DNA of 64,000 nt from Coriobacteriaceae bacterium (lineage in GTDB: Bacteria; Actinomycetota; Coriobacteriia; Coriobacteriales; Coriobacteriaceae). This document shows positions 4,198-55,057 of the stretch, piece after piece. Position numbers and translations under genes: made by a program. Location of the stretch: the NCBI GenBank assembly GCA_902362275.1, contig CABIWB010000007.1, positions 55,401-119,400 of the forward strand. Reading direction: 5' to 3'. The notes below the pieces were generated by a model. The model saw only the letters and a list, made by a program, of their open reading frames with translations. It was not told where the DNA came from and made no database searches. Within the stretch, counting starts at the first letter, position 1, and each line of letters starts with the position of its first letter.

Positions 4198-4362
4198 ATG
4201 TCCTGTGCGCTTCGCGCTCGACTATTATTGCAAGGAACGCCACACGATGCAAGCCCCATTTTTCAAGAATTTTGAAAAGAGTTTTTCGGATCCATTTCGA
4301 GCATTTCCCACCGGTTTCATAGGAGTAAACTTGCCCCACTGCAAATGCTCGAAAGGAACGGC

Positions 4363-38088: not shown

Positions 38089-38104
38089 GGGCAATCCTTA
38101 ATAA

Positions 38105-38129
38105 AAAAGCCGGGGAAAACGTCCCCGGC
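38105..38129 (-). terminator. Terminator behind the BREX operon, inside the DUF3800 leader
   Basis: On the minus strand GCCGGGGA-CGTTT-TCCCCGGC is followed by six T. It ends 16 bases before the DUF3800 start codon, and so would stop both read-through from the BREX operon and transcripts from the DUF3800 promoter unless relieved. Confidence 0.85.
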
Positions 38130-38164
38130 ACTTGGAAGCCCTCTCTTAAGAGATGACCACCTAA

Positions 38165-38194
38165 TTTATACCATGAAGTTAGACGTATGTTCAA
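38165..38194 (-). promoter_or_regulatory. Promoter of the DUF3800 gene
   Basis: On the minus strand TTGAAC (38194-38189) and TATAAA (38170-38165) are 18 bases apart. The start would fall near 38158, giving a ~70-base leader that contains the palindrome TCTCTTAAGAGA and the terminator. Confidence 0.6.
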
Positions 38195-38224
38195 GCATGA
38201 GTATAAAATACAAACATATGTTCG
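38181..38224 (-). promoter_or_regulatory. Two LexA/SOS-box-like sites
   Basis: On the minus strand CGAACATATGTTTG (38224-38211) differs by one base from the Gram-positive SOS box CGAACATATGTTCG, and TGAACATACGTCTA (38194-38181) is a weaker second copy 30 bases away covering the -35 element. Spacing is close to three helical turns. Confidence 0.55.
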
Positions 38225-38243
38225 TCAATAGCCAAGGCAGCTA

Positions 38244-38441
38244 TCATTCAGTGTCATCGTCAACGGCAAAGTCGCGAAGGTCGAGGCCTTCGCGTTCGGC
38301 TCGGGCAAGGAGCTCTTGCGGCGACTCGTCCTCAGTATCCACTACGTCGAGCATGGCGGCCGGAAAGCCCACGCCCGCCGCGCTCCCCGCGCGGTCGAGC
38401 AGACTCTCGCGCAGCTGGTCTACATCAACGTCGATCTTCAT
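38244..38441 (-). CDS. Small acidic protein, last gene of the BREX operon
   Basis: 65 residues (MKIDVDVDQLRESLLDRAGS at the start, ending EGLDLRDFAVDDDTE), strongly acidic, with AGGAGG at ideal spacing before the ATG. It lies 27 bases behind the 454-residue gene on the same strand and ahead of the operon terminator. I do not recognise a family. Small acidic products in defence operons can be DNA mimics or partners of a neighbour; here that is conjecture. Confidence 0.65.
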   Translation of the reverse strand: MKIDVDVDQLRESLLDRAGSAAGVGFPAAMLDVVDTEDESPQELLARAEREGLDLRDFAVDDDTE

Positions 38442-39908: not shown

Positions 39909-42257
39909 CTACAGATCCAGGGCCTTTTTCGCGGCGTCGACCGGGTCGCCATCCATGTAGAACACCGGGCTCAACCCCGAGATAATCTCGGACGAAACAC
40001 TCTGCAAACCCGCAATAGCGCTCAGCGGCAAAATCACGCGCTTGGCGCCGGCGTTTTTGGCCACGCGCATAATGTCCTCGAGCCCGCGGATCTCGTCCAT
40101 AGAGCCCGACATGCGCAAGATTCCCGGAATCGCCAGCGCGGGCATCACCGGGCGGTTGCACGCCGCAGAGCAAAGGCCCACAAACTCGGCGAGCGAAACT
40201 TCCTCGGACAGGCCCTTGCTCTGCAGGTCGTTGTAGAACAACAGGTAATCCTTGGAGCCAATGTGCATCCCCGGCGCCACGCGGTTCGCCAGGTTCACAA
40301 AGTTGTCGAACGCGGCCTCCAGCGTATCGCGCACCGGCTTGTTAAAGGCCACGCCCTCGTGCTTAAACTTGCACTCGCCGGCAACGGCCTTGTTCTCCAG
40401 CTTGTACACGGCAACCTCGCCGCCCTGCGACCTGCCCACGCCAAACACGTGACCGGACAGCAGCGGCCCGTCGGGAATCAGGGTGTCCTCGCTCTGCTCG
40501 GGCACGCGCACCACATGCACGTCCTGCGGGTTGTCGGCATCCATATAGCCCAGGTTGACGTCGATAAACTCGACGCCCGCCATAATCTTGAGCTGCTCCT
40601 TTACGCGGCGACGGCCCTCGATGGCGTAGTCCAGCAGCCAGCGCACGTCGTCCTTGTCCATGGCCTCGTCGGGGAACAACAGCTTGGCCAGACCGCTAAA
40701 GGTCTTGCGCACGGCGATCTCGTCACGCTTGTTAAAGTCGCTGTTAAAGCGGAAATACCGATCGATATGGTGCGTGAAGTCCTTACGGCGCATCTCCTTG
40801 CAAAACTCCGACAGGCAGTCGGTGATCAGGCCGTAATGCCCGGTCAGCAGGCTCGAGCGCATCTTGGGAATCTCCCAGCCCGGCAGGTAATAGTGGATAC
40901 GGTCGAAGAAGGCCGAATCGTTGTTAAACTCCGGCGGGAACGGATCAAACAGGTGCGTGGTCTTAAGAACGTTTTGCACGGTGTCGTTGATGTTGCCCTC
41001 AAAGACCATGGAGGCATCAGCGTTGATCTGATCGCGGCCGCGCGCGTAGCTGCCACTCGCCATGTAGTCCTTCATGATCTGCACGGCGTTGGTGTCCTTA
41101 AAACGCATGCCGGCGACCTCGTCAAACGTCACGCAGTCCCAGTGGCCCACCAAGCCCACGCGATCGGCCCGCATGGAGTTCATGCGACCGAACAGGTTGG
41201 CCGTGGTGGTCTGGCCGCCCGAAAGCAAGATGGCATAGGGCGAGACCTCTTTGTAGATATGGCTCTTGCCGGTACCACGGGGACCCAACTCGCACAGGTT
41301 GTAGTTGCGCTCGATGAGCGGCACCATGCGCTCGATAAAGTGCAGGCGTTCTTTCTCGGATAGCTCGCTGGGCTCATAGCCAGCGGAGCGCAGCAGCATG
41401 TTCAGCCACTCGTCGCGCGCAAAGTACTGGCGCTCGTCGACCATGGCATCCAGGTCCAGATTGGGCATCTGGATGGGCGTGAGCGACGCCACACTAAACG
41501 GAGAGTCCTCGGGTCCGCGCTTTTTGCGCTTGGCCTTGGAGCGGCGCGGCGCATCGTCGCCAAAGACCTCCATGCCAAACTCGTCTTCCTCATCCAAGGG
41601 GTGACGATACTCGATGCTCATAATGCACCAAATGCCACCCTGCAGAATCTTGGAATAGTCGCGCACGTACTCAGCCGGCATCACAAACGGCTCAATAGTC
41701 AGATTGGCAAACGATGCCACGTAGATGTCTTTGTACTCGTCGAGCTTGGCCGTCACCTTATCGATGATGGTAAAGCGGCCCAGTTCGCGAATCTTGGACT
41801 TAATGCGCTCGGACTCGTCGGGACGCACGTAGTTATCGGTGAGGATCCTGCGGATGCGCTCCAAACCCTCTGCCACAGCATCCTCGTCGTCAGTTGAGCA
41901 GTACATGCCCAGCAGGTACTCCAGCACAAAGGTGGGCACGTTGGCGCCGCGCTTCATAAGGGCCGTCAGGTCCTTGCGCACGATCTTGCCAGCAAAGTGC
42001 TCGAGCAGTTTGCCGTCCAGCCCATCCATGTCATAGCCGTCTTCCTCGGAGGCCTCGGCCACAGCCTGGGCATAGCCATCGGTCGAGAATCCGTCTTCGG
42101 CGTTCACCGCAGCCTCAACGGGCGCGGCAGCAACCGGCTCCGGGGCAGGCGCAACAGCCTCAGCCGCCGGGGCCCCCACAGGCGCCGCAGCCGCCGCAGG
42201 CACGTCAACATCAATCGAGGGAACTTCCCACAGATTGTCGTCATTGCTATCAAACAT
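39909..42257 (-). CDS. brxL: BREX protein BrxL (Lon-like AAA+)
   Basis: 782 residues; ATG at 42257 has AGGAG eight bases upstream, better than the GTG at 42266. Residues 1-75 are an Ala/Pro/Val-rich acidic tail that seems absent from typical (~680-residue) BrxL. Then come the conserved DGLDGKLLEHFAGKIVRKDL and LEYLLGMYCSTDDE, Walker A LGPRGTGKSHIYKEVSPY (around residue 326), Walker B VTFDEVAGMRFKD, and the C-terminal Lon-protease-like fold (PVMPALAIPGILRMSGSM, GAKRVILPLSAIAGLQSV, LSPVFYMDGDPVDAAKKALD). BrxL is known to form ring oligomers on DNA and is required for phage exclusion but not for methylation. It follows pglZ by 11 bases. Confidence 0.95.
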   Translation of the reverse strand: MFDSNDDNLWEVPSIDVDVPAAAAAPVGAPAAEAVAPAPEPVAAAPVEAAVNAEDGFSTDGYAQAVAEASEEDGYDMDGLDGKLLEHFAGKIVRKDLTALMKRGANVPTFVLEYLLGMYCSTDDEDAVAEGLERIRRILTDNYVRPDESERIKSKIRELGRFTIIDKVTAKLDEYKDIYVASFANLTIEPFVMPAEYVRDYSKILQGGIWCIMSIEYRHPLDEEDEFGMEVFGDDAPRRSKAKRKKRGPEDSPFSVASLTPIQMPNLDLDAMVDERQYFARDEWLNMLLRSAGYEPSELSEKERLHFIERMVPLIERNYNLCELGPRGTGKSHIYKEVSPYAILLSGGQTTTANLFGRMNSMRADRVGLVGHWDCVTFDEVAGMRFKDTNAVQIMKDYMASGSYARGRDQINADASMVFEGNINDTVQNVLKTTHLFDPFPPEFNNDSAFFDRIHYYLPGWEIPKMRSSLLTGHYGLITDCLSEFCKEMRRKDFTHHIDRYFRFNSDFNKRDEIAVRKTFSGLAKLLFPDEAMDKDDVRWLLDYAIEGRRRVKEQLKIMAGVEFIDVNLGYMDADNPQDVHVVRVPEQSEDTLIPDGPLLSGHVFGVGRSQGGEVAVYKLENKAVAGECKFKHEGVAFNKPVRDTLEAAFDNFVNLANRVAPGMHIGSKDYLLFYNDLQSKGLSEEVSLAEFVGLCSAACNRPVMPALAIPGILRMSGSMDEIRGLEDIMRVAKNAGAKRVILPLSAIAGLQSVSSEIISGLSPVFYMDGDPVDAAKKALDL

Positions 42258-42268
42258 AGGGCACACTC

Positions 42269-44977
42269 CTAAAAACCAAAATCAGCAACAGGTGCAAACG
42301 AAACAGCGATGGTGTACGTCTCGCGCCAAACGATCTTGCCCGCCTCGCGCTCGCGGCAGACCAGATAGTACGGACCCTTTGCCGAGAATCCATCCGCCGC
42401 GCGCAGCGCAAACTTGGCATGCACTACGCGCTCCTGCGAATTAACAGAAGTCTTGTTAGCATGCGCCTTGACCGTATCGCTCACCTCGTTGCCGCTTGCA
42501 TCGGTAAACACCAGCTCGTATTCGCACGGCAAGACCTTGCCTTGGGCTGGTTCTTCCTGGATCAAGTTGAGCGAGAAGAGCGAGTTGGTCACCCGGCGCC
42601 CCTCACTTAGCACGCGCAACGTCGCCGCGCGCGTGTCGACAAAGTCCTTGGAACCCGAGCGCGCACGCCAAAATCCAATAACGGGCACGCAAAGCTCCTG
42701 CAGGCTCATGCCGCCGTGGACGTAGTTGTTAGTACCACCGGGACGCTTGAAGTGCACGTTCTCGCGCGGGGCAAACCCCTCAAAGCCGGCACCCAAACGT
42801 CCCATGTCAACATTAACAAACACCTCGCGTGCCTCGTCCGAAAGCTTGGCCACGGCCTCGTTGGGCACCACCAGATGACGCTTGCCGTGCATGACGGGAG
42901 CGTCAAGGAAGGGAAGATCTGGCTTGCCAAGCATCTGGCACTCGCTGAGCTCCCGGCGCGTGTAGATAAAGCCGTGATCCGCCGTTATAACAACACGAGC
43001 GCCCGGGGCGTCGGTGCACACGCGACGCGCCAACGCAGCAAGTTCCCCCACGGTGTCCGCACAGGCACCGAAGACGTCATCCTGCGTAGCGGCCTTCTCG
43101 CCCGTGGCATCGATCTTGTTGTGGTAGAGGTAGACAAGTCTTGAGTCCTTGAGCAGCGCCTTACGCTCGGTTCCCGCCATGTTGAGGTATGCGCTCGAGC
43201 GTAAAGCGCAGGCCGTGGGCTCAACGTGGGCAAGCACGGCCTCACGCTGCGGAGTCGTCGCAGTGGGCATGCCGTTAGCTAACACAAACGAGCCATCCGC
43301 TGCAAGTTCAAGCGCTTGGTGTGGCAGCAGCGCAGGCATACCTACCTCGGTAATGGAGGGAAAGACCGCCTGCATACTAGAAACCTTGACGTTGCCGCCG
43401 CGCTCGCGCTCGAGCAGCGCCGCAACGTCGCGGGCTACCTCATAGCGCAACGCGTCACTCACGATAACGACTGTCGTTTTGGCAGAGCCCACATAGGTGG
43501 GCAGCACATGCCAGTAGAACTCATCCTGCCGCGCAGGGCCATCGATGTAGCCGCAATCGGCCCACTCCCCTTGCGCAGCGGCCGCCCAGCAGGTATTGGC
43601 GTCGACCAAGAACCAGTTACTGTAGAGATTCTCCGCCCAATCCACCACAGCTCGGGCAGGTTCCTCGAGTACATCGCACTCGACGGAGCGCGCCCGCAGA
43701 TACGCGGTGCACATATGACGATAGGCGGCATCCATGGCATACCAATCGGACGTGTAGGCATCCCACACCTGCTGGGGCTGCGCCAGATGGAAGCCGCCCG
43801 CATGCGCCTGCCTAAACGCGCACATATCGGCCACAGCGGCAAGCAGGTCAAAGTAGCTCTCGACACGACGGTACCAGCTTAGGTCGCAGCGACGCGCACC
43901 AAATGCGCGCGTATCCTCAACACGGTCCGCGCCCTGGGCAAACGAGCAGAACAGCTGCGAGAGCACAGCCTCATTGACGCACGGAAACACATCAAGCGAG
44001 GTCAGCACATCGATCGGCAAGGTCTCGAACCGTGCAAAGAGTCCGCGGGCGTCCTCAACCAAACGGCAGATCTCAAATAGGTCCTCGCTCGACGCCTGGG
44101 TATCGGCGGTCTGGTCCCACGTACGCACCGCCTCAAGGCAATAGGGGCCGTAGGCGGGAGCCACATAGCTTTCGAGTCCCTTGAGCGCTCCCTCGGGAAG
44201 CGCGGTAGACGCCGCTGTAAGGAGCACATGGGATGAAAGCATAAGCAATGAGTCGCGCTCATACAGCGGTCCCTCAAACCCATAGCAGCGAAGCATAAAG
44301 GCAGAGAGCACATCGCGCACGCAGTACTTGTCCATCAACTCGGCCAGCGCCTCGGGACCCTCGTGCAGCAGCATGGTCATACAGCCACGCAGCACAAACG
44401 CGGGGCGCGCGTCACCAAGCTCTTTACCGCCAAAAATCACCGTAAGGATGCCGAGTTCGATATCGGATGCGCCCGAGGCATGCGGAACACACGCGGCAAA
44501 CTTAGTGCAGCGGGTCTTGGCATCAAAGAACGTCTTATGCTCGCGAAGGCTCTCGCGCACGGCGTCGATATTCTCGATGCCCAGCTGATCGACCAAAAGC
44601 GAAAGATAGTCAGCCTGGAACTGATCGGCATACAGCTCAACATCGGCAAGCCAATCACCCTCAAGCCTGCCGTGCGGGCAACGGCGATACAGCAAGATAT
44701 CGCTCGCAAGGTCATCGCGGTTGATGAGCTTCTTGACGGCAAACATACGGCCCTCGCAGGCCTCAACAAAGCGCACCGGACGCTCAAAGTCACCGTGAGC
44801 AGGCATTACGCCAGCATCGGCCCCCACGCCGTCGAAACCCTCGGCAGCCAATCGCTCAAACTCAGGAGCAAACTCGCCGTCCGCATCGTGCCAAACCACC
44901 ACACGGCGGGGCATGCATGCGAGCAACGGCTGCAAAAATCGCAGCTTGAGCTGTTCTTCTACATCGATCTTGGGCAT
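42269..44977 (-). CDS. pglZ: BREX-1 phosphatase-like protein PglZ
   Basis: 902 residues. The N-terminal third (RRVVVWHDADGEFAPEFERL) is the BREX-1 PglZ type A region. The alkaline-phosphatase-like PglZ domain lies in the C-terminal half: VVIVSDALRYEVARDVAALL, AVFPSITEVGMPALLPH, SRLVYLYHNKIDATGEK and VVITADHGFIYTRREL hold the expected metal-binding Asp/His residues. PglZ is needed both for host methylation and for phage defence in type 1 BREX, and interacts with other BREX parts. The start is 23 bases behind the C-terminal PglX gene, and the stop is 11 bases before brxL: one operon. Confidence 0.95.
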   Translation of the reverse strand: MPKIDVEEQLKLRFLQPLLACMPRRVVVWHDADGEFAPEFERLAAEGFDGVGADAGVMPAHGDFERPVRFVEACEGRMFAVKKLINRDDLASDILLYRRCPHGRLEGDWLADVELYADQFQADYLSLLVDQLGIENIDAVRESLREHKTFFDAKTRCTKFAACVPHASGASDIELGILTVIFGGKELGDARPAFVLRGCMTMLLHEGPEALAELMDKYCVRDVLSAFMLRCYGFEGPLYERDSLLMLSSHVLLTAASTALPEGALKGLESYVAPAYGPYCLEAVRTWDQTADTQASSEDLFEICRLVEDARGLFARFETLPIDVLTSLDVFPCVNEAVLSQLFCSFAQGADRVEDTRAFGARRCDLSWYRRVESYFDLLAAVADMCAFRQAHAGGFHLAQPQQVWDAYTSDWYAMDAAYRHMCTAYLRARSVECDVLEEPARAVVDWAENLYSNWFLVDANTCWAAAAQGEWADCGYIDGPARQDEFYWHVLPTYVGSAKTTVVIVSDALRYEVARDVAALLERERGGNVKVSSMQAVFPSITEVGMPALLPHQALELAADGSFVLANGMPTATTPQREAVLAHVEPTACALRSSAYLNMAGTERKALLKDSRLVYLYHNKIDATGEKAATQDDVFGACADTVGELAALARRVCTDAPGARVVITADHGFIYTRRELSECQMLGKPDLPFLDAPVMHGKRHLVVPNEAVAKLSDEAREVFVNVDMGRLGAGFEGFAPRENVHFKRPGGTNNYVHGGMSLQELCVPVIGFWRARSGSKDFVDTRAATLRVLSEGRRVTNSLFSLNLIQEEPAQGKVLPCEYELVFTDASGNEVSDTVKAHANKTSVNSQERVVHAKFALRAADGFSAKGPYYLVCREREAGKIVWRETYTIAVSFAPVADFGF

Positions 44978-45000: not shown

Positions 45001-45969
45001 TTACTTAATCTTCGCCAGCACATCCTGAAACTTGGAGTAGTTGACCTTGACGCCGTCATCCAGGTCGATCTTAATCATCTGGTCTGCCAAGTGGTGCAGT
45101 TTCTCCTCGTAGCCAATAGTCTCTTTGAGCTGGTCGTTAAGCTTTTTGACGCGCTTGTCCAAGCGCACGCGCTCGCCGCGCTCGGCGGTGGCAAGGGCAT
45201 CGTTGGCATAGCCGATCTGGGCACGGTAGCGCTCCTGCTGCCCATGCACATAGTCGGTGCGGATGCGGGCCAACAGGTCAGGCTGGTAGCGATGCATGTA
45301 AACAAGGCACTTGAAGCCGTTCTTCTTGCCGCTGTCGAACAACCAGTAGATGGGGCGCTTCTTATAGGTCTGGCAGTGGTCCTTAAAGAAGTCCTTCAAA
45401 AAGTAGGTGCGGATTACCTCGCGCGGGGTACCCTTGCCGCCGAGTGCCTCGGCAATAAAGGCCAGGTTCTGCTCAAGCGTCTCCTCGCCATACACGGTGC
45501 GCACAAAGTCGATAAAGTAGCGCACGATGTCATCATCAAAGTACTCGTCATCGGTAATGGGCAGCACGTTATCGCTATCGGGCATAAAGGTCACATGGTC
45601 AGAGTTGGGCATCTTGGCCAGATAGTCATCGACTGTGGCGCCCTGATCGGCCAGGACCAGCCCGTCCACATTCAGCGAATAGCGGCCAAACATGCAGCCC
45701 ACGGCATAGCTAATGAGCGAGGTGATCTCGTCGCGCTTGGTACGCACGTATTTGTTACCCTTATAGCTCTCGGGAATCTCGTCGGCGGTGTCGAAGATGC
45801 GCGCCACCGAGACGTACTTATCCTCGACCTCGATAGGCACCTCGCCCTCCATGTTGTAGATCTTGGCAAAGATCCGGTTGAGCTCTTCCTCGTTAGCGCG
45901 AAGCTGCTCAAAGCGAGCATTAACCTCGGCCTTGCGCGCCTCGTATTTATCGGCCAAAAGCGTTGCCAT
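45001..45969 (-). CDS. pglX: C-terminal part of PglX, encoded as a separate protein
   Basis: 322 residues; ATG at 45969 with GGAAGG six bases upstream (an ATG at 45990 has none). The sequence is the C-terminal region of BREX-1 PglX: FEQLRANEEELNRIFAKIYN, SLISYAVGCMFGRYSLNVDG, VRTVYGEETLEQNLAFIAEA, IRTYFLKDFFKDHCQTYKKR, PIYWLFDSGKKNGFKCLVYM and RIRTDYVHGQQERYRAQIG. In ordinary PglX (~1,200 residues) this block follows the methyltransferase and target-recognition part in one chain. Here stops in the frame upstream of the ATG rule out a simple continuation, and two genes lie between the halves. Its own ribosome site and place directly before pglZ argue that it is translated. Confidence 0.9.
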   Translation of the reverse strand: MATLLADKYEARKAEVNARFEQLRANEEELNRIFAKIYNMEGEVPIEVEDKYVSVARIFDTADEIPESYKGNKYVRTKRDEITSLISYAVGCMFGRYSLNVDGLVLADQGATVDDYLAKMPNSDHVTFMPDSDNVLPITDDEYFDDDIVRYFIDFVRTVYGEETLEQNLAFIAEALGGKGTPREVIRTYFLKDFFKDHCQTYKKRPIYWLFDSGKKNGFKCLVYMHRYQPDLLARIRTDYVHGQQERYRAQIGYANDALATAERGERVRLDKRVKKLNDQLKETIGYEEKLHHLADQMIKIDLDDGVKVNYSKFQDVLAKIK

Positions 45970-46121
45970 TGTGCTGCCTTCCGTTTCCATGGTCTTGCAA
46001 TTAATCGGTCGCCGTAAAGGAATCAGGCTCGGAGCTCAGCCCTATGCGCCGCGCGACACCCGCGTATCTCTTGCTCGAAAGCAGCTGATTCGTCTTAATT
46101 GCGCGATATGAAATCGCTCTC

Positions 46122-46580
46122 CTATCCAACGGAAGCTTTCAAATCGACTTCATGCCACACGTATCTGCCAAACACTCCCAATGCTGGACTAAACTCAAAT
46201 GCGCATTCTCGAGATTCGCTCCTTTCCGAAATTACAAGGAGCAATCGAGATCCCCCCAATAGATCGCGAGCGTTCCCACAGCGACAAATCGCATGGTAAT
46301 CTTGCGAACCGACTGTCTTCTCGGTAATCAAAAATGAAAGCGTTGCTAAACCAGACGGATCAAAATAAGGGGTACCATGAGCGGAAACGTTGCACATGTG
46401 CGGCTCCCCACACATTATTAAATCGAGCTGCAAAACCGCATCCGTTATCGCAAAGTCCTCTGACTTTTCCTGCTCAACGCACTTCAGCTCAATGCATATT
46501 TCTCTGGTCTCACCACGGAGAAAACGATCGACCGCCTGTAGGTCGTAATTTTGAGGTTCATAAATACAACAATCAGACAT
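46122..46580 (-). CDS. Unknown 152-residue protein inserted between the PglX halves
   Basis: Starts at 46580 behind AAAGGT. Its sequence (MSDCCIYEPQNYDLQAVDRF, RGETREICIELKCVEQEKSE, FSPALGVFGRYVWHEVDL) contains five cysteines and a mixed alpha/beta pattern; I recognise no family. Base composition is clearly lower in GC than the BREX genes around it. It is codirectional with the operon, 42 bases after the HTH gene and 152 bases before the PglX C-terminal gene. Confidence 0.6.
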   Translation of the reverse strand: MSDCCIYEPQNYDLQAVDRFLRGETREICIELKCVEQEKSEDFAITDAVLQLDLIMCGEPHMCNVSAHGTPYFDPSGLATLSFLITEKTVGSQDYHAICRCGNARDLLGGSRLLLVISERSESRECAFEFSPALGVFGRYVWHEVDLKASVG

Positions 46581-46622
46581 GGTTATTACCTTTCGAAACT
46601 ACAGCGTCCTTGCGGAAGCAGC

Positions 46623-47129
46623 TTATCTTTGGATAATTTGATTTATTGCACTTCCGGCAATAATACCCACGGCATCGGCAGTCCACTTCAGTGCCGTAGG
46701 CGTCTCATTTATAGCCTTGTCATTCTGACCGCGGCCAATCAAAGCAAGGCCCTTTTTCGTTATTTGTAAGCCAACACCTTCTTGTGAAAACGCCAAATAA
46801 TCGGCGTCTTTCAACGATTGAATGCACCCAGCGATATCGACTGCCGGAATACCCCAAGCAGAAACGTCGATTTCGGAAATACGCTCGTTTTCAAGCTCGA
46901 TTATCTGCCACAGCAGCTCCCTTATGATGCATGCATCTATGGGACGCTTCGCATCACAGGGGATGATCCACCTGAACGGGAAGGAGGTTTCTTTTACCGC
47001 ACCAGAAATCAAATCAGCTCTACACCAGGCGGAAACATCTCGTTTATCGGCGTTCCACTTTTCAGCACACTCCGCTGTAGTTCGTTTCGTCTCTTCGACA
47101 AGTTTGTAGGATTTAGCCACAATGCTCAC
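46623..47129 (-). CDS. Helix-turn-helix protein inserted between the PglX halves
   Basis: 168 residues from a GTG that directly abuts the pglX stop (TAG then GTG), so translation is probably coupled. The N-terminus TTAECAEKWNADKRDVSAWC, followed by RADLISGAVKETSFPFRWII and PCDAKRPID, has the pattern of MerR/excisionase-type DNA-binding domains seen on mobile elements (helix-turn-helix, then a wing ending in Trp-Ile-Pro). The middle (IQSLKDADYLAFSQEGVGLQ, ITKKGLALIGRG) could be a second winged helix. The C-terminal 25 residues (LKWTADAVGIIAGSAINQII) are hydrophobic. Composition is AT-rich compared with its neighbours. Possible autoregulator of the locus or relic of an insertion. Confidence 0.65.
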   Translation of the reverse strand: MSIVAKSYKLVEETKRTTAECAEKWNADKRDVSAWCRADLISGAVKETSFPFRWIIPCDAKRPIDACIIRELLWQIIELENERISEIDVSAWGIPAVDIAGCIQSLKDADYLAFSQEGVGLQITKKGLALIGRGQNDKAINETPTALKWTADAVGIIAGSAINQIIQR

Positions 47130-49565
47130 CTACAACAGCGGATGACGTTTGAAATCCCAGGAGGTTTCAAACGAGTCCCAATCGGCATCAGCAATGGACA
47201 CCGATTGGTCGGCATAGTCAACAACTTCAGTGTCAAGAGCGCTTGAAGGAGGCATCGGAAGCGAGAGGACATCACCAACCGTTGTATTCAAAGTCGGATT
47301 AATCGCATCAAGTAGCTCTGAAGCAATCGATGAGTTCAGGAACGCCAAATCGATAGACAAAGCTCTTTCGCTATCTTGATTAGACATGAAAACTGTCGGG
47401 GCACCAGAAGTGAACAGCTCACCTTGGTCTTTTACTCGAAACGAGCAGCGACCCGACGTGATTAAGCCCCAACAAATTCCCTTCCTTTCGATGGACCCAG
47501 ATTTAGGAAGGCCGCCATGCTGGTCATAAAAATCGTTAGCTTCATCAGACCAGTTCACTACGTCATATTTCATTCCAGACCATCTAGAGAAACCGCCGCC
47601 GTTCGACAACGGCATCCATAACCTCCCAATTAAAGAAGCTGGGACCTCCCACCAATTCCTGACATATTTCTCATTGTCATGAGTTTTTAAACGGCCACCT
47701 GACACATAAGCAGACTTCATCGTTCCTAGCTCAAACATGTGCCCATATTTCTCGGAAAGCCAGTAGGCGATGGGAGTGCCGGGAATCTGCTTGAAGGTCT
47801 CGGCGTCGCGGCGGTAGAACTCAGTCTCCCCAGCAGAGAACGAAACAGGGTTCCCAGCCGCATCCAAGTCTTTAGCTTCGATTCGACAATAAGAACCAAG
47901 GCTATTTGTACGGCAATTAGCAAACACCGTTGCAGAAGTATTGAATGCAATCCTCATCACCATATGCCCCATGTAGCACATGGAAACGATTGATTTACTG
48001 TCAAGAACTCGACGCCTCATTGCCTCAAAGCTACTCAGAAACATCCAAGATGCCATCGTAACCATCGCTGAATAGCCGCGGTCCTTCGCCAGGTTGAACC
48101 CGCGCTCGATAAAGCACGTGCAGAGGTCGCTCTTCACGTCGGGGTAATTCTTCTTGACCCACTTGCTCATGAATGGATTAAAGCTGCTGCTGCCCATATA
48201 CGGAGGATTCGCCACAGTGCAGGTAAAACGACGGGACAGCTTCTCGCAGATGGCGGCAGCGCTTTCGAGCTTAGTTTTGGCCGTAGCGGCAAAAAGGTCA
48301 TCGGAACAACTCGCGGCGGCAGCCTTGAGCTCGTCGATCTCGTCCTCTGAGGGATTGAGCAGCGAACCGATCTCGCCCAAATGACTCAGCTCCTCGGCGA
48401 GCTTCTTGTTACCCGGCAGCTCGTTCTCCCCTAGCGGGATGCTCGAGAGCACGGTAACGTCGGCGCGAACGCCACGCCTAAAGAGGCGACGGTCGTGCTC
48501 GCGGGCGCACATGGCAAGCGCCAGCTCCGCGATCTGTGCCGAGCGGGAATCGATTTCCATACCTGCAAGGTTTTTAGTAAGAATGAGCTCGGGAATCTCG
48601 CGCTCACGATAGCCGCGCTCCTCGTACATATGGAAGAGCAGCTCAAACGCATAGACCAAGATATGGCCCGAGCCGCATGCGGGGTCGCAGAGGGTTATCT
48701 CCTCGGGACTCGAAATGCGGATGAAGTCCTCGTGCTCAGCATCGGGCTCGATGTAATACTCCATGCGCTCGCGTAGCGAACTCCCCGGATTGTTGAGCAT
48801 CCACAGACGGCCGAGCGAGTTCTCGACCATATAGCGCACGATCCACTCGGGGGTGAAGAGCTGCGTAGCGGGCGCGATGTCCGCCGCCGCTGCCTTGCGC
48901 TTGGACTTGAAGAACTCGTCTTTAACGTCGGCATTGTAGTACTGATACATCCAGCCCAGAACGGTCACGCCCTCGCGCCAGTCCTCGTCAGTGAGGACGG
49001 CATTGAGTTTGCCCACCACACTGTCAGCCATCATGAGGCCCTGGGGCAACAGCAGCTCCATGGCTCCGCCCACGCGTTCAAAGACGCCCGGCAGGCAATC
49101 GGCAAGCTCCTCGCACTGGGCAACAAACAGGTAGCGCCACAACGGTTCATCCAAGCCCGCCATCTTGAGCTCGGCTATGCGATCGGTATCGGCCGTCGTT
49201 ATTTCCACGTCCAGAGCGTTCTCCACGGCCTCGCTGCCATGGCTGCCGTCCGCACGACTTAGCATGCGCATATGGCTGGGAAGCCATCCGCGTGCATCCA
49301 TGAAGCGAATGGCCACGATGCGGTTGAACCAGGTGTAGGCCGCACGGTCGCGCAGCGCCTCGTGACCCACCTCTGCCTGCATGCGCAGCAGTTCGTCGCG
49401 TTGCTCAATCTCAGCCGGACTTAGGGGCAGGCCGCTGACGGTCTCGGACCCAACGGGCGCGGGTGCAGGTTCGGTGATGCCGTAGCGCACCATCTGCGCC
49501 TCCACGCCTTTGATGAGCTCCGTACGGGCCCAGGTGCAGAAGCTCTTAAGAGCAGAATCGTTCAT
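47130..49565 (-). CDS. pglX: BREX-1 adenine DNA methyltransferase PglX, N-terminal and target-recognition part
   Basis: 811 residues. MNDSALKSFCTWARTELIKG and WFNRIVAIRFMDARGWLPSH are PglX N-terminal blocks. The SAM site is LCDPACGSGHILVYAFELLF (near residue 290) and the catalytic N6-adenine motif is VANPPYMGSSSFNPFMSKWV (near residue 450). Residues ~560-780 form the target-recognition region (WWEVPASLIGRLWMPLSNGG, WGLITSGRCSFRVKDQGELF, INPTLNTTVGDVLSLPMPPS). The chain ends at FETSWDFKRHPLL-stop, exactly where a normal PglX goes on into its C-terminal domain, here encoded at 45001-45969. PglX methylates a non-palindromic site to mark host DNA. The lower-GC content of the target-recognition part fits the usual exchange of this region between strains. 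Confidence 0.93.
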   Translation of the reverse strand: MNDSALKSFCTWARTELIKGVEAQMVRYGITEPAPAPVGSETVSGLPLSPAEIEQRDELLRMQAEVGHEALRDRAAYTWFNRIVAIRFMDARGWLPSHMRMLSRADGSHGSEAVENALDVEITTADTDRIAELKMAGLDEPLWRYLFVAQCEELADCLPGVFERVGGAMELLLPQGLMMADSVVGKLNAVLTDEDWREGVTVLGWMYQYYNADVKDEFFKSKRKAAAADIAPATQLFTPEWIVRYMVENSLGRLWMLNNPGSSLRERMEYYIEPDAEHEDFIRISSPEEITLCDPACGSGHILVYAFELLFHMYEERGYREREIPELILTKNLAGMEIDSRSAQIAELALAMCAREHDRRLFRRGVRADVTVLSSIPLGENELPGNKKLAEELSHLGEIGSLLNPSEDEIDELKAAAASCSDDLFAATAKTKLESAAAICEKLSRRFTCTVANPPYMGSSSFNPFMSKWVKKNYPDVKSDLCTCFIERGFNLAKDRGYSAMVTMASWMFLSSFEAMRRRVLDSKSIVSMCYMGHMVMRIAFNTSATVFANCRTNSLGSYCRIEAKDLDAAGNPVSFSAGETEFYRRDAETFKQIPGTPIAYWLSEKYGHMFELGTMKSAYVSGGRLKTHDNEKYVRNWWEVPASLIGRLWMPLSNGGGFSRWSGMKYDVVNWSDEANDFYDQHGGLPKSGSIERKGICWGLITSGRCSFRVKDQGELFTSGAPTVFMSNQDSERALSIDLAFLNSSIASELLDAINPTLNTTVGDVLSLPMPPSSALDTEVVDYADQSVSIADADWDSFETSWDFKRHPLL

Positions 49566-49631: not shown

Positions 49632-52600
49632 TTAGTTGATACGGATCTCGTCGTTTGCAGCGAGCGCCTGCATAAGGCGGGAGCGCAGGTCGTCCACGTA
49701 GCGCTCCACGTCCTCTGCGGACAAGAGACGACTCGGCTTGGCCAGATCAGCGCGGCGCACAGTCTTGATCTTGCGCTGGGGCTTGGGCGCGGGCACGGGA
49801 GCAGACGATGCGGCGCCCTTGTTGGAGACCTTCTTGACCACCTCGCCCGTACTCATGACCTCGGTGGTGCGGCGCTCGTTGTCCATACGCACGCGGGCCT
49901 CATCCACAGCGTCGTACATCTCGTTGGCCGCCGCACTGAGCCAGTCGCCCCAGTTAGTTGCAACAACGCTCAGTTCGTTGAGACTTTGAGCGCTGTGGGC
50001 ACGGTTTTTGAACGACTCGTATTTGGTGCCGGCGTCTGCTATGGCATCCTTGGCCTGATTGACAAAGCCCTTTTGACTCTCGGCCTGCGTCCGCAGGTCT
50101 TGCAGATCGCTCTCGATGCGACACAAAAACTCATTGCGGCGGATGCCCAACAGCTTTTTCATGTCATCCTCGACGGGATCCATAAGCGGCTGCAGGTCTT
50201 TAATACGGCCGTAGGGCTTGGGATCTTTGAGGATCTCACGAACCTTTGCCACGTTCTCCACCGCACCGGGAATGTCATCGGAGGCATACTCGATACCCTC
50301 GGTGCGGCTCAAGAAATCCTTGGCGTGGTCAAACGCTGTTCGTTGGTTGGACTCGAAGAACTCAACCACCTTGTCAAAGTCTTCCTTGGCATCGAGCAAG
50401 CGCTCCTCATGCTTGGTGAACGTGGTCAAGAACGCCTCGGACTCGTTCTGGTCCTTAAGGACGTCGGCCGCCTCCGAGCGCATCTTCTCGCACTCGCTCT
50501 CGCCAGGATACGGATAGAGCGGTTTGATGCCCGTATAGTAGTCGCGTGCTATGGCGAGGCACGACTCGCGCAAGTCCTCAAGGCGCTCCTTGAGCTCGAC
50601 CACGAGCCTATCCTCGTTGGAGGGCACGGTCTTGAGATCAAACAGGTCACACATGAGTTCGCCCGTGGCGCGCAGCAACCGATCGCTCATGCGCATGCGC
50701 AAGCGCACCTGGGCCTTATCGGCATCCTTGCGCAGGAGCGCCACCATGCGGCTGTCGTTAGCTTGAACCGTCTGACCGCCAAACAGCACCTGCGCGCGCT
50801 GCTCCACCACAAGCTGCGCCACCACATTTGCGATGTCGACCTCGCGCCAGCCAAAGGGCCTTTGCTGGTACTGGCGCTGGATATCGCCCATAGCGGTATC
50901 CAGGTGCCGCTGGTGCTGCACTTTGAGGTAGTCCTCGACCTCTTTGAGCGCACGCGTGTTACCTGCATCCATGCCAGCGAACCCCACTTGAACGTTGCCC
51001 ACCAGAGTAGAGCGAATATCGGAATCGCTCGTGACCGGCGCGCCGATATAGTCGGCCTTTTCAAAGACCACATCGCACAGCTGTGCCAGCACCTGCTCAA
51101 AGACCTGAGCGGGTTTGGCAGCACGGATCTCAATCATGCGCCCGTTGACGGCGCATCGTGCATGGAGCACCGCCTCAGCCAAAAGGGCGTCAGCCTCTTT
51201 CTCGTTAAAGTCCTTCTCGCGCATTTTGGCCTCGACAATCTGGCAAGTACTCGGCGGTAACTCCTGCAGATTGCGCGTCTGGGCGTACATGCGAATCTTA
51301 GCGGCGTTGACGAGTGGGGCCCAATAATCCACCTCGTCGCTCAAGGCCACGATGGCCTTATCCACGGATTTCAATGCCAGCTCGGCATCGTCCGAACGGC
51401 CCAGATCGCTGGCCATAGTCACCACGGAAAGTTCCATGCCGCCCATGCTGGTACCGTGGATTGAGCCGTCCACATAGCGGTCAAACGGAAAGTCGTTGGC
51501 CCCGCGGTTAAGTTTGCGCGCAGTGTAGATGCTTTCGAACAGGCGCTTCTTGATGTACTCAATCACCTTCGCGTTGTCGATCGGGGTGCGTGCGATCTCC
51601 TGCGCTATCTCCTGCTCCTCGTCGGTGAGGAAGCTATAGGTATCGCCCTGGCGTGCCACGTAGCTCTCGCGCTCCAAGCGGGCGAGAGATTCCTTGACGC
51701 GGTCCTTAAGGGCGCGCTTGTCCACGTCCAGGCTATCGATCATAAGGATGGAGATGTTCTCGACCGTGGCCTTGACGTAGCCGATGTAGCGGATCAAGTA
51801 CAGGAGCTTAAGCACCCGGACATCGTAGCTCTCAAGACCCTCTGCGTTTTCAGCCGCGCGCTCCGCACAGACGACGACCTGAATGATGCCGTGCTCCAAA
51901 TCCTTGGAGATTGTGTCGAAGAAGCGCCAGAACGGCACGAGTGCACCAGTCTGGTCATGCTGGATGGCCTGAGCGCTCTCCTGAAACGCGCTCAGCATGG
52001 AGCGCTCGCCCGTGGACATGTGCTTGGCCTTAACACCGTGCTTGCGTACCTCGGTCATCACGTCGGGCAGAAGCTTAAACTGATAGCCCACAAACGGGTA
52101 GCTGGCCACAAAATCCTTGGAGTTGGCGAAGCCGGCAAGGTCGGAGCGCGAGCCACCCTCAAAGGTAAAGTTGTTTTTGAGGACGGCGGCGTCTTGCTCG
52201 TAGACCTGTGCAAGCATATCGACCGCCGGCGCGGTCTTCTCGAGCACACGGCGCTGGATGACCTCGTCCACGCTGGAGCTGGAGAGCGAAAGGCGGGTAT
52301 TGAAGCGGCCTTGGATCTTTGAAAAGTCGTTGCCCACGGGCAGGCTCAGGTTGTCGATGGCCTCCTGGCTCGTGACCATCACCCACACGCGGCCACCGCA
52401 GGCGGCACCCAGCTCCTCGACGATGGTCTGAAGACTCAACATAAGGCTTGGATCCCGGTCGTTTGTAATAAACTGACCCACCTCGTCGACCATAAAGAGC
52501 AAACGGAAGTTGCCGCCGTGGGCCGCTGCCTGAGCGTCCACGTAGTCCTTGACCTTTTTGGCAAAGACATCAGGGGCCAAAACCTCGTCCTCAGAACCCT

Positions 52601-53294
52601 CGAGCCAGTTCCATGCGGCCTTTTCGCTCATGCCGAGCACGCTCTGCAGCACCTCGACGACGTCGTCCTCAAAGTAGCTGTAGGTGTCGCGGGTCTGGAG
52701 CCAGGACTCGCCGTTGACGCGCTCAAAGGCCTCGCGGAACTCCTGGGTCTTGCCCAGGGAATCGATGTGGTCCTCGAGCTTTGCAAGCTTGAGGTCCTCG
52801 CCGTAGAAGCCGCGCGCCTCGTAGAACATGCGCTCAAAGCCGCGAAGCAGCGCCGTGGGAGCCGTATCGCCCTGCTTCCACTGACCCGCCTTGCTATCGA
52901 TGTTAAAGAGGATGGCCTGCGTGGACACCGAGCAGGCGCGCTCCATGGCAGCCTCGACCATGGGGTCGACGATCTTGCCGTCAAAGTAGCGGATGGCGCT
53001 CTTGCCGCCGATCTGGCGATTCTCGAGCAGATAGCTCAACATCTTGAGGAAGTGCGATTTACCGGAACCGAAGAAACCACTGATCCACACGCCGATCTTG
53101 TCGGTGCGCACATCGATGGCATCGCCGTAGGCCTTGAAGAACGTGGCAAAATGCCTCTGCAACTCGCGCGTCACCACGTACTCGTCAAGCTCCTGGCGGA
53201 TGGACCCATCTTTTGAATCCTGGACCTTGACCACGCCGTTGATGGAGCGGTTGATGTCTTTTGCAAAGAGGTCGCGAATGATCGTGTTGTCCAT
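49632..53294 (-). CDS. brxC: BREX P-loop ATPase BrxC
   Basis: 1,220 residues; ATG at 53294 behind AAAGGAG. IRDLFAKDINRSINGVVKVQ opens the protein as in other BrxC/PglY, followed by the Walker A ISGFFGSGKSHFLKMLSYLL (around residue 75), a Walker B/sensor region LLFMVDEVGQFITNDRDPSL and GRVWVMVTSQEAIDNL. The long C-terminal two thirds are helical with coiled coil near residues 950-1120, and a basic Pro-rich segment (APVPAPKPQRKIKTVRRADL) lies near the end. BrxC is an AAA+ type ATPase needed for BREX defence and methylation. It lies 78 bases behind brxB. Confidence 0.95.
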   Translation of the reverse strand: MDNTIIRDLFAKDINRSINGVVKVQDSKDGSIRQELDEYVVTRELQRHFATFFKAYGDAIDVRTDKIGVWISGFFGSGKSHFLKMLSYLLENRQIGGKSAIRYFDGKIVDPMVEAAMERACSVSTQAILFNIDSKAGQWKQGDTAPTALLRGFERMFYEARGFYGEDLKLAKLEDHIDSLGKTQEFREAFERVNGESWLQTRDTYSYFEDDVVEVLQSVLGMSEKAAWNWLEGSEDEVLAPDVFAKKVKDYVDAQAAAHGGNFRLLFMVDEVGQFITNDRDPSLMLSLQTIVEELGAACGGRVWVMVTSQEAIDNLSLPVGNDFSKIQGRFNTRLSLSSSSVDEVIQRRVLEKTAPAVDMLAQVYEQDAAVLKNNFTFEGGSRSDLAGFANSKDFVASYPFVGYQFKLLPDVMTEVRKHGVKAKHMSTGERSMLSAFQESAQAIQHDQTGALVPFWRFFDTISKDLEHGIIQVVVCAERAAENAEGLESYDVRVLKLLYLIRYIGYVKATVENISILMIDSLDVDKRALKDRVKESLARLERESYVARQGDTYSFLTDEEQEIAQEIARTPIDNAKVIEYIKKRLFESIYTARKLNRGANDFPFDRYVDGSIHGTSMGGMELSVVTMASDLGRSDDAELALKSVDKAIVALSDEVDYWAPLVNAAKIRMYAQTRNLQELPPSTCQIVEAKMREKDFNEKEADALLAEAVLHARCAVNGRMIEIRAAKPAQVFEQVLAQLCDVVFEKADYIGAPVTSDSDIRSTLVGNVQVGFAGMDAGNTRALKEVEDYLKVQHQRHLDTAMGDIQRQYQQRPFGWREVDIANVVAQLVVEQRAQVLFGGQTVQANDSRMVALLRKDADKAQVRLRMRMSDRLLRATGELMCDLFDLKTVPSNEDRLVVELKERLEDLRESCLAIARDYYTGIKPLYPYPGESECEKMRSEAADVLKDQNESEAFLTTFTKHEERLLDAKEDFDKVVEFFESNQRTAFDHAKDFLSRTEGIEYASDDIPGAVENVAKVREILKDPKPYGRIKDLQPLMDPVEDDMKKLLGIRRNEFLCRIESDLQDLRTQAESQKGFVNQAKDAIADAGTKYESFKNRAHSAQSLNELSVVATNWGDWLSAAANEMYDAVDEARVRMDNERRTTEVMSTGEVVKKVSNKGAASSAPVPAPKPQRKIKTVRRADLAKPSRLLSAEDVERYVDDLRSRLMQALAANDEIRIN

Positions 53295-53372: not shown

Positions 53373-54065
53373 TTACGAGATATCGATGGCGCGGTAGTAG
53401 TTGTCGGCCGGCAGACGGTTAAAGAGCTGGAAAGAAGAGCCGTTGAAACTGCCCGGATAGGCGGCGACCACAGGCACCTCATCAAAATCCGCAAGCATGC
53501 AGTGGAGAAGCGTGTGTATGCGAAAGAACGGGAAAACCTCGCCCGCGCCGGTGAGGAGAACGACGTCTCCAGGCGCGTGCGGCTCGGTCTGCTCAAGGAC
53601 GTACGCGGCGACTTTCTCGGGCGAGGCGAACTTGGCCACGTCCTCGAGCACGCGCTGGGTACCGCGGCGCTCCTCTTGGTGCGGGATAGCCTTGAGGACA
53701 CGGCGCTTTTCGAGAATTGCCAGCACGGCGTCGTAAAGGTTCACGACCTTGAGCGTGCACGGAAGCTTGTCGGCCTCGGCATCGCGTGAAAGGGTGTCAA
53801 ATAATGCACGCGCCTCAAACTCCAGCGCGGGGTCATAGCAAAAGGTGTGGAAGCCGATCTCATTGCCTATGCCCTTGTTGGCCAAAAAATCCTCGCTGCA
53901 CAGGCACTCGCGCAGAAGCTGCGCACGGCGCTCAAATTCCTGACAGGCGCGCTCGGAGCGGACATGCGCCGCCACGACGCTCTTGCGGGAATGAATACCG
54001 ATATTGGTGGTGAGATCGGTCGCCGGGGTGATAACAGGGTCGGCGGCGCTTTTGACGGGAGCCAC
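53373..54065 (-). CDS. brxB: BREX protein BrxB (DUF1788)
   Basis: 230 residues from a GTG one base beyond the brxA stop, implying translational coupling. The DUF1788 pattern is clear in the C-terminal half: DVVLLTGAGEVFPFFRIHTL, PVVAAYPGSFNGSSFQLFNR and LPADNYYRAIDIS. The N-terminal ~25 residues look like an extension. BrxB is a core BREX component of unknown biochemical role, essential for methylation in type 1 systems. Confidence 0.92.
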   Translation of the reverse strand: MAPVKSAADPVITPATDLTTNIGIHSRKSVVAAHVRSERACQEFERRAQLLRECLCSEDFLANKGIGNEIGFHTFCYDPALEFEARALFDTLSRDAEADKLPCTLKVVNLYDAVLAILEKRRVLKAIPHQEERRGTQRVLEDVAKFASPEKVAAYVLEQTEPHAPGDVVLLTGAGEVFPFFRIHTLLHCMLADFDEVPVVAAYPGSFNGSSFQLFNRLPADNYYRAIDIS

Positions 54066-54066
54066 G

Positions 54067-54750
54067 CTACATCACCGCCCTGCCGGTAAGGGCCGCGATA
54101 AGCGACTGCTCGCCCAGCTGAACCAAGGCTCGCTCGACATCGGAATCGAGGAAGAGCGGTGACAGGCGCTCGGACTCCGGGCCCTGACCCTCGCCGATAA
54201 GGCCGGCATGGCGGAGCGTCTGGCGGAGCGAGCCCTTAATGCGCTTGACCGTGGCCTCAGTCCAGCGGGCCGCGTCCGGATACTCCGTGGTAAAGCGTGT
54301 CATAAAGGCGTTGAGGTCAACCGCCGTAAAGGCATAATCAAAGTTTTGTAGGCGCTCCCCTACCTCGACGAGCACGAGCTCGCGCACGATGTCGTAGCGG
54401 CAGATCATGCTGTAGAAGATGGCCTGGTCCGCCTGCGTGGGGGTGCCGGATGCCATGAGGTTGGTTAGGAATGACGCAGCCTCAGCGGCGGTTTTGGGGT
54501 CGATGCCGCGCGCGGCGCATGCGGCGTCTGTGGGCACCATGGCGTCGAGGCGGCGAAGGCACACGGTTGCGCGGTTGGCGACCATGCGCTCCGTGGGATA
54601 TTGAAAGAGGTTCTCGCTCTTTACGCGTACAATGACCTGCTCGTCGCTTGCGCCCTGTGTACGTAGGGCAGCGACGATGCGCATCTCATGCGGGAGGAAT
54701 TGCTCGCGGGTGAGCACCCCCCCCCGAACGCTTTTTGTGGTTACATCCAC
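54067..54750 (-). CDS. brxA: BREX protein BrxA (DUF1819)
   Basis: 227 residues from the GTG at 54750, chosen because TGGAG lies eight bases upstream; a GTG at 54819 in the same frame is a longer alternative close to a likely -10 box. The DUF1819 pattern is present: SVRGGVLTREQFLPHEMRIV, SENLFQYPTERMVANRATVC, DQAIFYSMICRYDIVRELVL and FLDSDVERALVQLGEQSLIA. BrxA is a small DNA-binding core protein of type 1 BREX. A run of nine G (54717-54725, read as C on the plus strand) encodes the Gly-Gly about ten codons into the gene and is a potential slippage site. Confidence 0.9.
   Translation of the reverse strand: MDVTTKSVRGGVLTREQFLPHEMRIVAALRTQGASDEQVIVRVKSENLFQYPTERMVANRATVCLRRLDAMVPTDAACAARGIDPKTAAEAASFLTNLMASGTPTQADQAIFYSMICRYDIVRELVLVEVGERLQNFDYAFTAVDLNAFMTRFTTEYPDAARWTEATVKRIKGSLRQTLRHAGLIGEGQGPESERLSPLFLDSDVERALVQLGEQSLIAALTGRAVM
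54717..54725 (-). repeat. G9 homopolymer tract in the start of brxA
   Basis: Nine consecutive C on the plus strand (nine G in the coding strand), the longest homopolymer noticed in the coding regions I examined. It sits in the N-terminal codons of the first BREX gene. Confidence 0.95.
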
Positions 54751-55057
54751 AGTACACGCTCCAAGGGTGTCAAAAGCTGTCACAAGTGCGCCGCAACCCG
54801 GCAGGCAGGCGCGGCGCACATGACAATAATCATACCTGTTGGTAAAAAAGTTACCACGCCCAGAGTGTCAAATGTTGAGCAACAAAATTTAATCCGGTTA
54901 ACGGTCATTTTCGCAGCTCAGGAGCTTTGGCGAGGTCGCCCCAAATCACACTTGCCAGACAACCGCGCTTACGAATGCAGGCACGCACACGCCCAACGCC
55001 ATCCTCCACTACACTCAACATAGAGTTATACATATGATTCTATGTAAGGAGTTTCAT
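54751..55057. other. Divergent regulatory region between brxA and the antitoxin-like gene
   Basis: No further gene. On the minus strand TATGAT (54834-54829) is a possible -10 for the BREX operon, next to the palindrome GGTAACTTTTTTACC (about 54840-54854). TTGACA boxes occur near 54865 and 54770. Confidence 0.4.
55020..55047. promoter_or_regulatory. Operator-like palindrome before the antitoxin-like gene
   Basis: CATAGA and TCTATG form an inverted pair around TATACAT (a good -10), directly before the ribosome site AAGGAG. This is the arrangement of self-repressing antitoxin operators. Confidence 0.45.

Follow-up and report, generated by a model that had tools for sequence, protein, structure and literature searches.

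BREX is a widespread anti-phage system, and PglX is its central DNA-marking enzyme. In a 64,000-nucleotide stretch of DNA from a gut bacterium of the Coriobacteriaceae (GenBank assembly GCA_902362275.1, contig CABIWB010000007.1, positions 55,401 to 119,400 of the forward strand), referred to at its full length as the window, we found a complete type 1 BREX operon in which pglX is divided into two open genes, with two other genes, orf A and orf B, lying between them. Our analysis makes it probable that the two halves form a working two-subunit PglX and that the break in pglX is used as a slot for accessory genes. The operon occupies 39.9 to 54.8 kb of the window on the minus strand and contains all six core genes as a single unit in the order brxA, brxB, brxC, pglX, pglZ (type A), and brxL. 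Its features, in window coordinates, are as follows.

54067..54819, minus strand: brxA (PF08849, 9.4e-33)
53373..54065, minus strand: brxB (PF08747, 7.5e-32)
49632..53294, minus strand: brxC (NF033441, 1058 bits)
47130..49565, minus strand: pglX N-half, 811 amino acids (NF033452 positions 1-899; aligned to Escherichia coli BrxX up to residue 869)
47184..48125, minus strand: variable target-recognition region, spanning approximately residues 481-794 of the N-half
46623..47129, minus strand: orf A, 168 amino acids, a helix-turn-helix (HTH) and winged-helix-like protein by sequence resemblance
46122..46580, minus strand: orf B, 152 amino acids, a predicted beta-rich protein whose relatives of known position lie in pglX gaps
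45970..47177, minus strand: cargo module common to the window and locus L033 of Collinsella aerofaciens BSD2780061688st1_F5 (97.6% identity over 1410 bp)
45001..45990, minus strand: pglX C-half, 329 amino acids (NF033452 positions 905-1209; E. coli BrxX 891-1195)
42269..44977, minus strand: pglZ, type A (TIGR02687, 405 bits)
39909..42266, minus strand: brxL (TIGR02653, 852 bits)

Together, the two pglX genes account for an ordinary PglX. When aligned to NF033452, the BREX-1 PglX model of 1210 positions, the N-half covered positions 1-899 (772 bits) and the C-half positions 905-1209 (386 bits); the N-half alone passed the model cut-off of 500, and the C-half, scoring below it alone, covered the remaining positions. 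The N-half contains the N-terminal domain, the N6-adenine methyltransferase with its DPACGSG and NPPY motifs, the target-recognition region, and the first part of a helical spacer, and the remainder of the spacer, together with the C-terminal domain, belongs to the C-half. Between model positions 899 and 905, what would be a single PglX polypeptide is broken by a stop codon and two intervening genes, with the N-half ending in ...DWDSFETSWDFKRHPLL-stop and the C-half restarting as MATLLADKYEARKAEVNARFEQLRANEEELNRIF. Since fused relatives join the same two blocks by a short linker (no more than 33 residues in 45 of 48 measured), no conserved part has been lost at the break. An earlier note on this DNA had described a type 1 PglX made as two proteins with two genes in between, cut where ordinary PglX has only a short linker and without loss of a conserved block, and our alignments and the four open reading frames (ORFs) bear out each of these points. 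Its view of the C-half as a gene with its own ribosome site also held, with a revised start: the true start is probably the eighth residue, an ATG at window position 45969, which is preceded by a Shine-Dalgarno (SD)-like GGAAGG and gives a protein of 322 amino acids, the length of most of the 120 close C-half relatives listed. The intervening genes are AT-richer as had been noted (GC content of about 0.48 across 46-48 kb versus 0.55-0.63 on the flanks), and the low-GC stretch takes in the end of the pglX N-half as well.

The position of the cut can be placed on known PglX proteins. Salmonella PglX has a recognition domain at residues 662-849, two long spacer helices at 850-960, and then the C-terminal region (PMC11341690), and E. 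coli BrxX has a target-recognition domain at 651-837 and a C-terminal domain at 838-1205 (PMC11842806). In E. coli BrxX numbering the N-half ends at 869 and the C-half begins at 891, which falls in the Salmonella spacer and thus puts the cut within this pair of helices, probably at the turn that connects them. One spacer helix would thereby be kept in each half, a natural surface for rejoining.

This layout is shared by many relatives. PglX was present in 46 of the 396 Coriobacteriia genomes in our class sample, and by a count from their listing 25 are split at this junction with the N-half before the C-half on one contig. In five others the C-half lies upstream of the N-half (G225, G239, G325, G351, and G353), ten are fused at the junction (G308 being broken elsewhere and G399 ending early), and six have one half only or have the halves on different contigs. 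A genus sample of 43 genomes gave the PglX family in 13, with 10 split, two fused, and one across contigs. We also analyzed 80 named loci around relatives of the C-half, the best 80 of 148 matches to the C-half of the window. The combined set, after removal of eight duplicates (L034, L036, L037, L038, L040, L041, L043, and L051), consisted of 112 loci, with 43 split (L053 being assigned by hand), 61 fused, and eight unclassified (L035, L039, L093, L121, L122, L130, L131, and L132). Split loci were found in Collinsella, Slackia, Adlercreutzia, and Anaerotardibacter and also in several Bacillota and one genome named Deltaproteobacteria, these being mostly metagenome-assembled genomes (MAGs). Among the 42 split loci with cargo, the N-half stops immediately after an ETSWDF..PL block in 39, and the C-half is preceded by a start codon at a constant position in 41.

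In a quick maximum-likelihood tree of 104 C-halves with the first 25 residues removed, 30 Coriobacteriia split rows grouped in a single branch (SH-aLRT 98) that contained no fused row. The tree needed 10 changes between the split and fused states compared with 33 on average when states were shuffled, and at least three changes were forced by starred branches. This C-half tree is most simply read as one old split in Coriobacteriia with further splits elsewhere. Both pglX halves are under purifying selection: with the window compared to eight relatives by the NG86 method, the ratio of nonsynonymous to synonymous substitution rates (dN/dS) was 0.06-0.16 for the C-half and 0.11-0.33 for the methyltransferase part of the N-half (first 480 residues). 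For orf A and orf B the values were 0.145 and 0.44, each from one relative and few changes. Because relatives share the layout, it looks like a selected design and not a broken gene. The same break and restart across loci, the low dN/dS, and the single clade likewise support the suggestion of the earlier note that this is a functional PglX in two subunits and not simply a broken gene.

Between the two halves, the gap behaves as a slot with variable contents. Gap length ranged from 314 to 6887 bp in 38 split loci measured, and the locus L053 has a gap of 135 bp without a predicted gene. The first cargo gene is codirectional with pglX and lies no more than 75 bp from the pglX-N stop in 39 of 42 loci, and cargo is probably co-expressed with pglX. 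Downstream, the space from pglX-C to pglZ is no more than 90 bp in 22 of 24 Coriobacteriia split loci measured, so that accessory genes in Coriobacteriia sit in the gap. In fused loci, more than 300 bp separates pglX and pglZ in 20 of 44.

Compared all against all, the predicted cargo fell into many unrelated groups. We searched Pfam (E<=0.01) and PADLOC with 86 cargo proteins of at least 80 amino acids, a count without the L033 and L134 cargo (near copies) and four of 90 ORFs that were doubtful. Among the families listed (25 of 50 for Pfam), the commonest were DUF3800 (12/86) and the HEPN family pEK499_p136 (6/86), and one or two proteins each matched Schlafen AlbA_2, PIN, SIR2, HEPN RiboL-PSP, HEPN, nucleotidyltransferase, SNF2 helicase, AbiEii-type AAA, YoeB, DUF4276, and an IS1595-type transposase domain. 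Among the 25 of 191 PADLOC matches listed, DrmD/DpdE/ZorD-type helicases and a ThsA-like SIR2 were added. By resemblance, many slot genes are like other defense genes, and most of the recognized cargo families are of defense or toxin types. An apparent cluster of 19 plus-strand cargo proteins, each of about 400 amino acids, was discarded as spurious, the real gene on the other strand being DUF3800.

A family of 17 cargo proteins contains an invariant RN..AH motif (R-x4-6-H, 17/17) and forms the first gene of the gap in every locus except L027, where short doubtful ORFs come before it. PF18736 was matched at E<=1 by 13 of the 17, mostly weakly (best 4.3e-7), and a predicted model (pLDDT 80) searched against the PDB gave no significant match. 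Because the predicted fold found no PDB match, we call these proteins HEPN-motif rather than proven HEPN. A profile of the family matched 17 of 43 split loci and none of 61 fused loci, plus the unclassified L132, where the gene lies behind the N-half; this link to split loci is weaker than it looks, since each of the 17 is itself a profile row and most of the fused loci come from other phyla. Across the class sample the profile gave 27 matches in 26 of 396 genomes, 14 of them profile rows, and of the 13 others a single one follows a pglX N-half (G353), the remaining 12 being placed elsewhere. One of these 12, in L144 (4118-4786), stands directly behind an apparent type III res gene, in the order mod-res-HEPN (named by eye). 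The cargo pair of the window contains no HEPN-motif gene.

In the window, the slot holds orf A and orf B. No match to orf A was found in Pfam, PADLOC, or NCBIfam, and its sequence resembles an HTH part followed by a winged-helix-like part. The earlier note had orf A coupled to pglX stop-to-start. The coupling is upheld, with the pglX-N stop TAG lying within the SD-like TAGGTGAG of orf A, an arrangement by which we read orf A as translationally coupled to pglX-N; the start itself is probably the second GTG, at 47117, 12 nucleotides past the stop, and homologues of orf A begin MAKSYK, matching that start. An orf A profile matched 41 of 396 class genomes at E<=1e-5, nearly all over the HTH part only, and near full-length relatives were found class-wide in G228 (a profile row, in a pglX gap), G203, G016, and G362. 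Those in G203 and G016 lie between hsdM and hsdS of type I restriction-modification (R-M) operons, and their start shares one base with the hsdM stop; their profile E values are 8e-18 and 9e-14, and the G203 relative is 32% identical to orf A over 124 amino acids (E 3e-10). Because these relatives sit behind hsdM, the same kind of gene follows the methyltransferase gene in BREX and in type I R-M. These relatives of orf A between hsdM and hsdS belong to type I R-M operons of the Collinsella family, at 4330-4815 of L149 and 4266-4745 of L150, and G203 has a second, oppositely oriented hsdS and a tyrosine recombinase (named by eye) downstream. The predicted beta-rich model of orf B (pLDDT 80) gave no PDB match. 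Among class genomes orf B was found in two of 396, each time in a pglX gap and in a genome that had supplied a row of the search model, and it is also in L033. The earlier note had asked for the same split with the same inserted pair in other Coriobacteriia; the split recurs widely, and among the fetched loci L033 was the only other one with the pair.

Target recognition and cargo have been exchanged separately. Compared in 60-residue steps with seven near Collinsella loci, the target-recognition region is 25-63% identical and residues 1-480 are 88-100% identical. Against L033, residues 1-480 of the N-half are 90-100% and residues 481-780 are 27-48% identical, and the gap alone is 97.8% identical in DNA. 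The DNA common to the window and L033 begins within pglX-N, some 45 bp short of its end, and continues into pglX-C, with identity running to the end of the compared stretch, 200 bp into the C-half. Similarly, L025 and L134 share a gap of 94.7% identity with residues 481-780 only 28-53% identical. The reverse, like recognition regions with unlike cargo, was observed for L026/L033 (96%), L022/L134 (91%), and L021/L025 (87%), and related recognition regions also connect split and fused loci (L045/L100 at 58% and L058/L081 at 56%). L026 is identical as a locus to L037 of C. aerofaciens MCC370. Since reassortment was seen both ways, the recognition region and the cargo are separate modules between conserved blocks, and it rules out cargo as the partner of one particular recognition domain.

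These findings suggest a model in which the N and C subunits most likely rejoin through the two-helix spacer into the usual PglX, which would then mark host DNA, as expected of type 1 BREX by N6-adenine methylation of a non-palindromic 6-bp motif, and license BREX restriction. Between the subunits would lie exchangeable cargo, here the DNA-binding-type orf A, coupled to pglX-N, and orf B, that may act as accessory or backup defense. Homologous recombination via the conserved methyltransferase, the ETSWDF block, and the C-half would let related strains swap the target-recognition region, and with it what is marked, separately from the cargo and its accessory or backup function.

The pglX pieces take other arrangements in some loci. 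In L042 (Anaerotardibacter) the order is N1-cargo-C-N2, with both N-halves complete and ending in the usual stop, and in L053 (a Ruminococcaceae MAG) it is N1-C-N2, with N1 cut by the contig start. A C-half followed directly by an N-half was found in L121, L122, L130, and L132, and inverted partial N-halves were found in L122 and L131. We also observed a fused PglX with a 262-residue in-frame stretch in the linker and no Pfam match to that stretch (L062, 6597-7382), two fused pglX genes in tandem in L135 (G273), and a lone second C-half fragment (positions 1035-1198) in G001 (C1:786710-787189), about 110 kb from the BREX locus. L123 carries a second copy of the beginning of pglX-C (MLIADKYEARKLED...), which follows the first section of the gap at about 4260-4400 in the pglX orientation; this duplication may be a trace of how cargo enters.

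Several observations weigh against a selected two-subunit PglX with a dedicated slot. Split forms are over-represented among the 80 named loci, which were picked by their match to the window's C-half. Some split loci look damaged, with G316/L128 being without about the first 140 residues in frame. Outside Coriobacteriia, pglX-C and pglZ are also more than 300 bp apart in 9 of 12 measured split loci, and both places are used there for accessory genes. The idea that all cargo is codirectional proved wrong, with 20 of 93 predicted cargo ORFs of at least 80 amino acids running opposite to pglX. Finally, the HEPN assignment of the commonest cargo rests on the RN..AH motif and on the mostly weak Pfam matches described above, with no PDB match.

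We weighed these points together with other explanations of the locus. Decay of the gene or an assembly error would explain a stop codon inside what is usually one gene, yet the same conserved stop and restart occur in many genomes, both halves are under purifying selection, and SD-like sites precede both restarts; we rule out a broken gene or artifact on these grounds and give it next to no probability. That a phase-variable pglX locus was caught in one state, with recombinase-driven inversion altering the N-half, is very improbable. The inverted partial N-halves of L122 and L131 speak for such inversion, as does Lactobacillus rhamnosus, described as having full and partial PglX with an integrase between (PMC7513527), but the 64-kb window has a single N and a single C match and no second pglX copy, a search of it with a single recombinase query, a tyrosine recombinase of the Collinsella family (named by eye), gave no match, and only short imperfect inverted repeats of 18-23 nucleotides occur across 36-56 kb. 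With no second copy and only such repeats, we set phase inversion aside for the window. The gap could also be merely a tolerated insertion hotspot, in which selfish toxin or mobile cassettes sit in a harmlessly cut linker without a link to BREX. Its widely varying contents, the DUF3800 cassettes that run against pglX with their own promoter-like region, the toxin-type genes (YoeB and PIN) and the IS1595-type transposase domain, and the accessory DNA between pglX-C and pglZ outside Coriobacteriia all fit this explanation. We regard it as unlikely, given that the first cargo gene keeps its direction and its close distance to the pglX-N stop, that in Coriobacteriia the tight space before pglZ leaves cargo in the gap, and that orf A relatives lie inside other methyltransferase operons as well.

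Two further proposals concern the role of the cargo itself. The first cargo gene may be a regulator or assembly factor of the methyltransferase, metering the expression or the joining of the subunits instead of providing backup defense. This role is favored for orf A because of its HTH part and the place of its relatives in hsdM-hsdS operons, where the start overlaps the hsdM stop, and its own coupling to pglX-N points the same way. As a general account it is possible but somewhat doubtful, since cargo is mostly unrelated between loci, the split locus L053 has its 135-bp gap without a predicted gene, and most recognized cargo families are of defense or toxin types. A guard role is favored by that cargo make-up and by the precedent of PrrC. 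In its full form, a two-slot recombining immune locus would have a cassette that watches PglX, a C subunit shared by N subunits, and guards shared with R-M systems; as a joint claim we hold this only tentatively and think it unlikely to be right in every part. PglX would be split at the spacer loop, and an invariant C subunit would cap the intragenic cassette slot. The coupled first gene (a HEPN-type nuclease, or here the HTH protein with its partner) would watch PglX and be kept silent by N-C assembly. Phage inhibitors acting on the recognition or C-terminal face, or blocking assembly, would release the guard, as with PrrC and its type I enzyme. A single C subunit might work with several N subunits that differ in specificity, and type I and type III R-M operons might have guard genes in common with the slot.

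Within the literature covered, a split PglX with an internal slot is a new form of the known type 1 BREX. Goldfarb 2015 is reportedly the first survey of pglX irregularities. By title, beginning of abstract, and selected passages, with supplements and that survey outside the coverage, no split PglX with genes between its halves was found. The locus shares the six-gene order and the PglX domains and motifs with single-chain type 1 BREX of E. coli, Salmonella, and Acinetobacter, and differs from them in that PglX is two genes with cargo between and that the C-half begins with its own conserved sequence. As in HsdM/HsdS of type I R-M, a two-gene enzyme has its functions on separate chains, with orf A relatives lying between both of those genes; there, catalytic and recognition chains are separate, whereas here the target-recognition domain stays with the methyltransferase and only the distal part is separate. 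Accessory genes nested in type I R-M operons include the rlo and mlo genes. PrrC of EcoprrI, likewise an accessory gene inside a methyltransferase-specificity operon, is kept silent by the type I enzyme to which it is linked, and an anti-restriction factor activates it (PMC2610378). The cargo here has the same nesting in a methyltransferase operon as PrrC-type guards; the host enzyme differs in being BREX PglX, the slot-bearing gene is itself divided, and sensing is our proposal. BREX-linked backup nucleases (2026) are encoded within BREX loci, often flanked by BREX genes, and as here HEPN, PIN, Schlafen, and other effectors lie within or beside the core genes (PMC12839542, in the sections examined); the words split, truncat, disrupt, and fragment are absent from its main text, and those sections contain no intra-pglX slot. 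The phase-variable pglX loci of L. rhamnosus resemble some relatives in having more than one pglX piece and differ from the window, which has no second copy and where variation is by replacement between strains (PMC7513527).

Other observations concern DUF3800 genes, small elements of the gap, and DNA next to the operon. Outside the BREX operon, an AT-rich stretch of the window contains a DUF3800-type gene by resemblance (37411-38094, minus strand; MRELSIFIDESG...) with its leader at about 38089-38260. DUF3800 cassettes share a leader that in most of them has GAAC-N4-GTTC-like boxes, a promoter-like site (TGGTATAA), and a pair of predicted hairpins, of which the second is terminator-like; this leader gave no Rfam match. 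We take the boxes to be LexA-like. In L023, L029, L115, L116, and L117, one or two such boxes occur 35-61 bp before pglX-C; as they lie between pglX-C and the DUF3800 gene, which is divergent, both genes could be under damage-type control. A small conserved hydrophobic ORF on the opposite strand of the gap, perhaps a small toxin peptide, was seen in L113, L119, L120, L123 (twice), and L127 (e.g., MDLVIQLLKLAASAVGLATAMVKAVSAARGSRPETK in L123), often just upstream of pglX-C. Behind brxL, a 454-amino-acid ORF (38469-39833, minus strand) had no Pfam, PADLOC, or NCBIfam match.

These findings suggest that an anti-phage system can operate with its central enzyme in two subunits. The split also gives a natural cut site for PglX biochemistry; the C-terminal domain of Salmonella PglX, severed at an earlier point ahead of the recognition domain, could not be expressed on its own (PMC11341690). 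The gap is a single, easily found genomic place where unknown defense-like genes collect, and since the recognition region and the cargo move separately, the slot allows a test of BREX accessory genes as methyltransferase guards.

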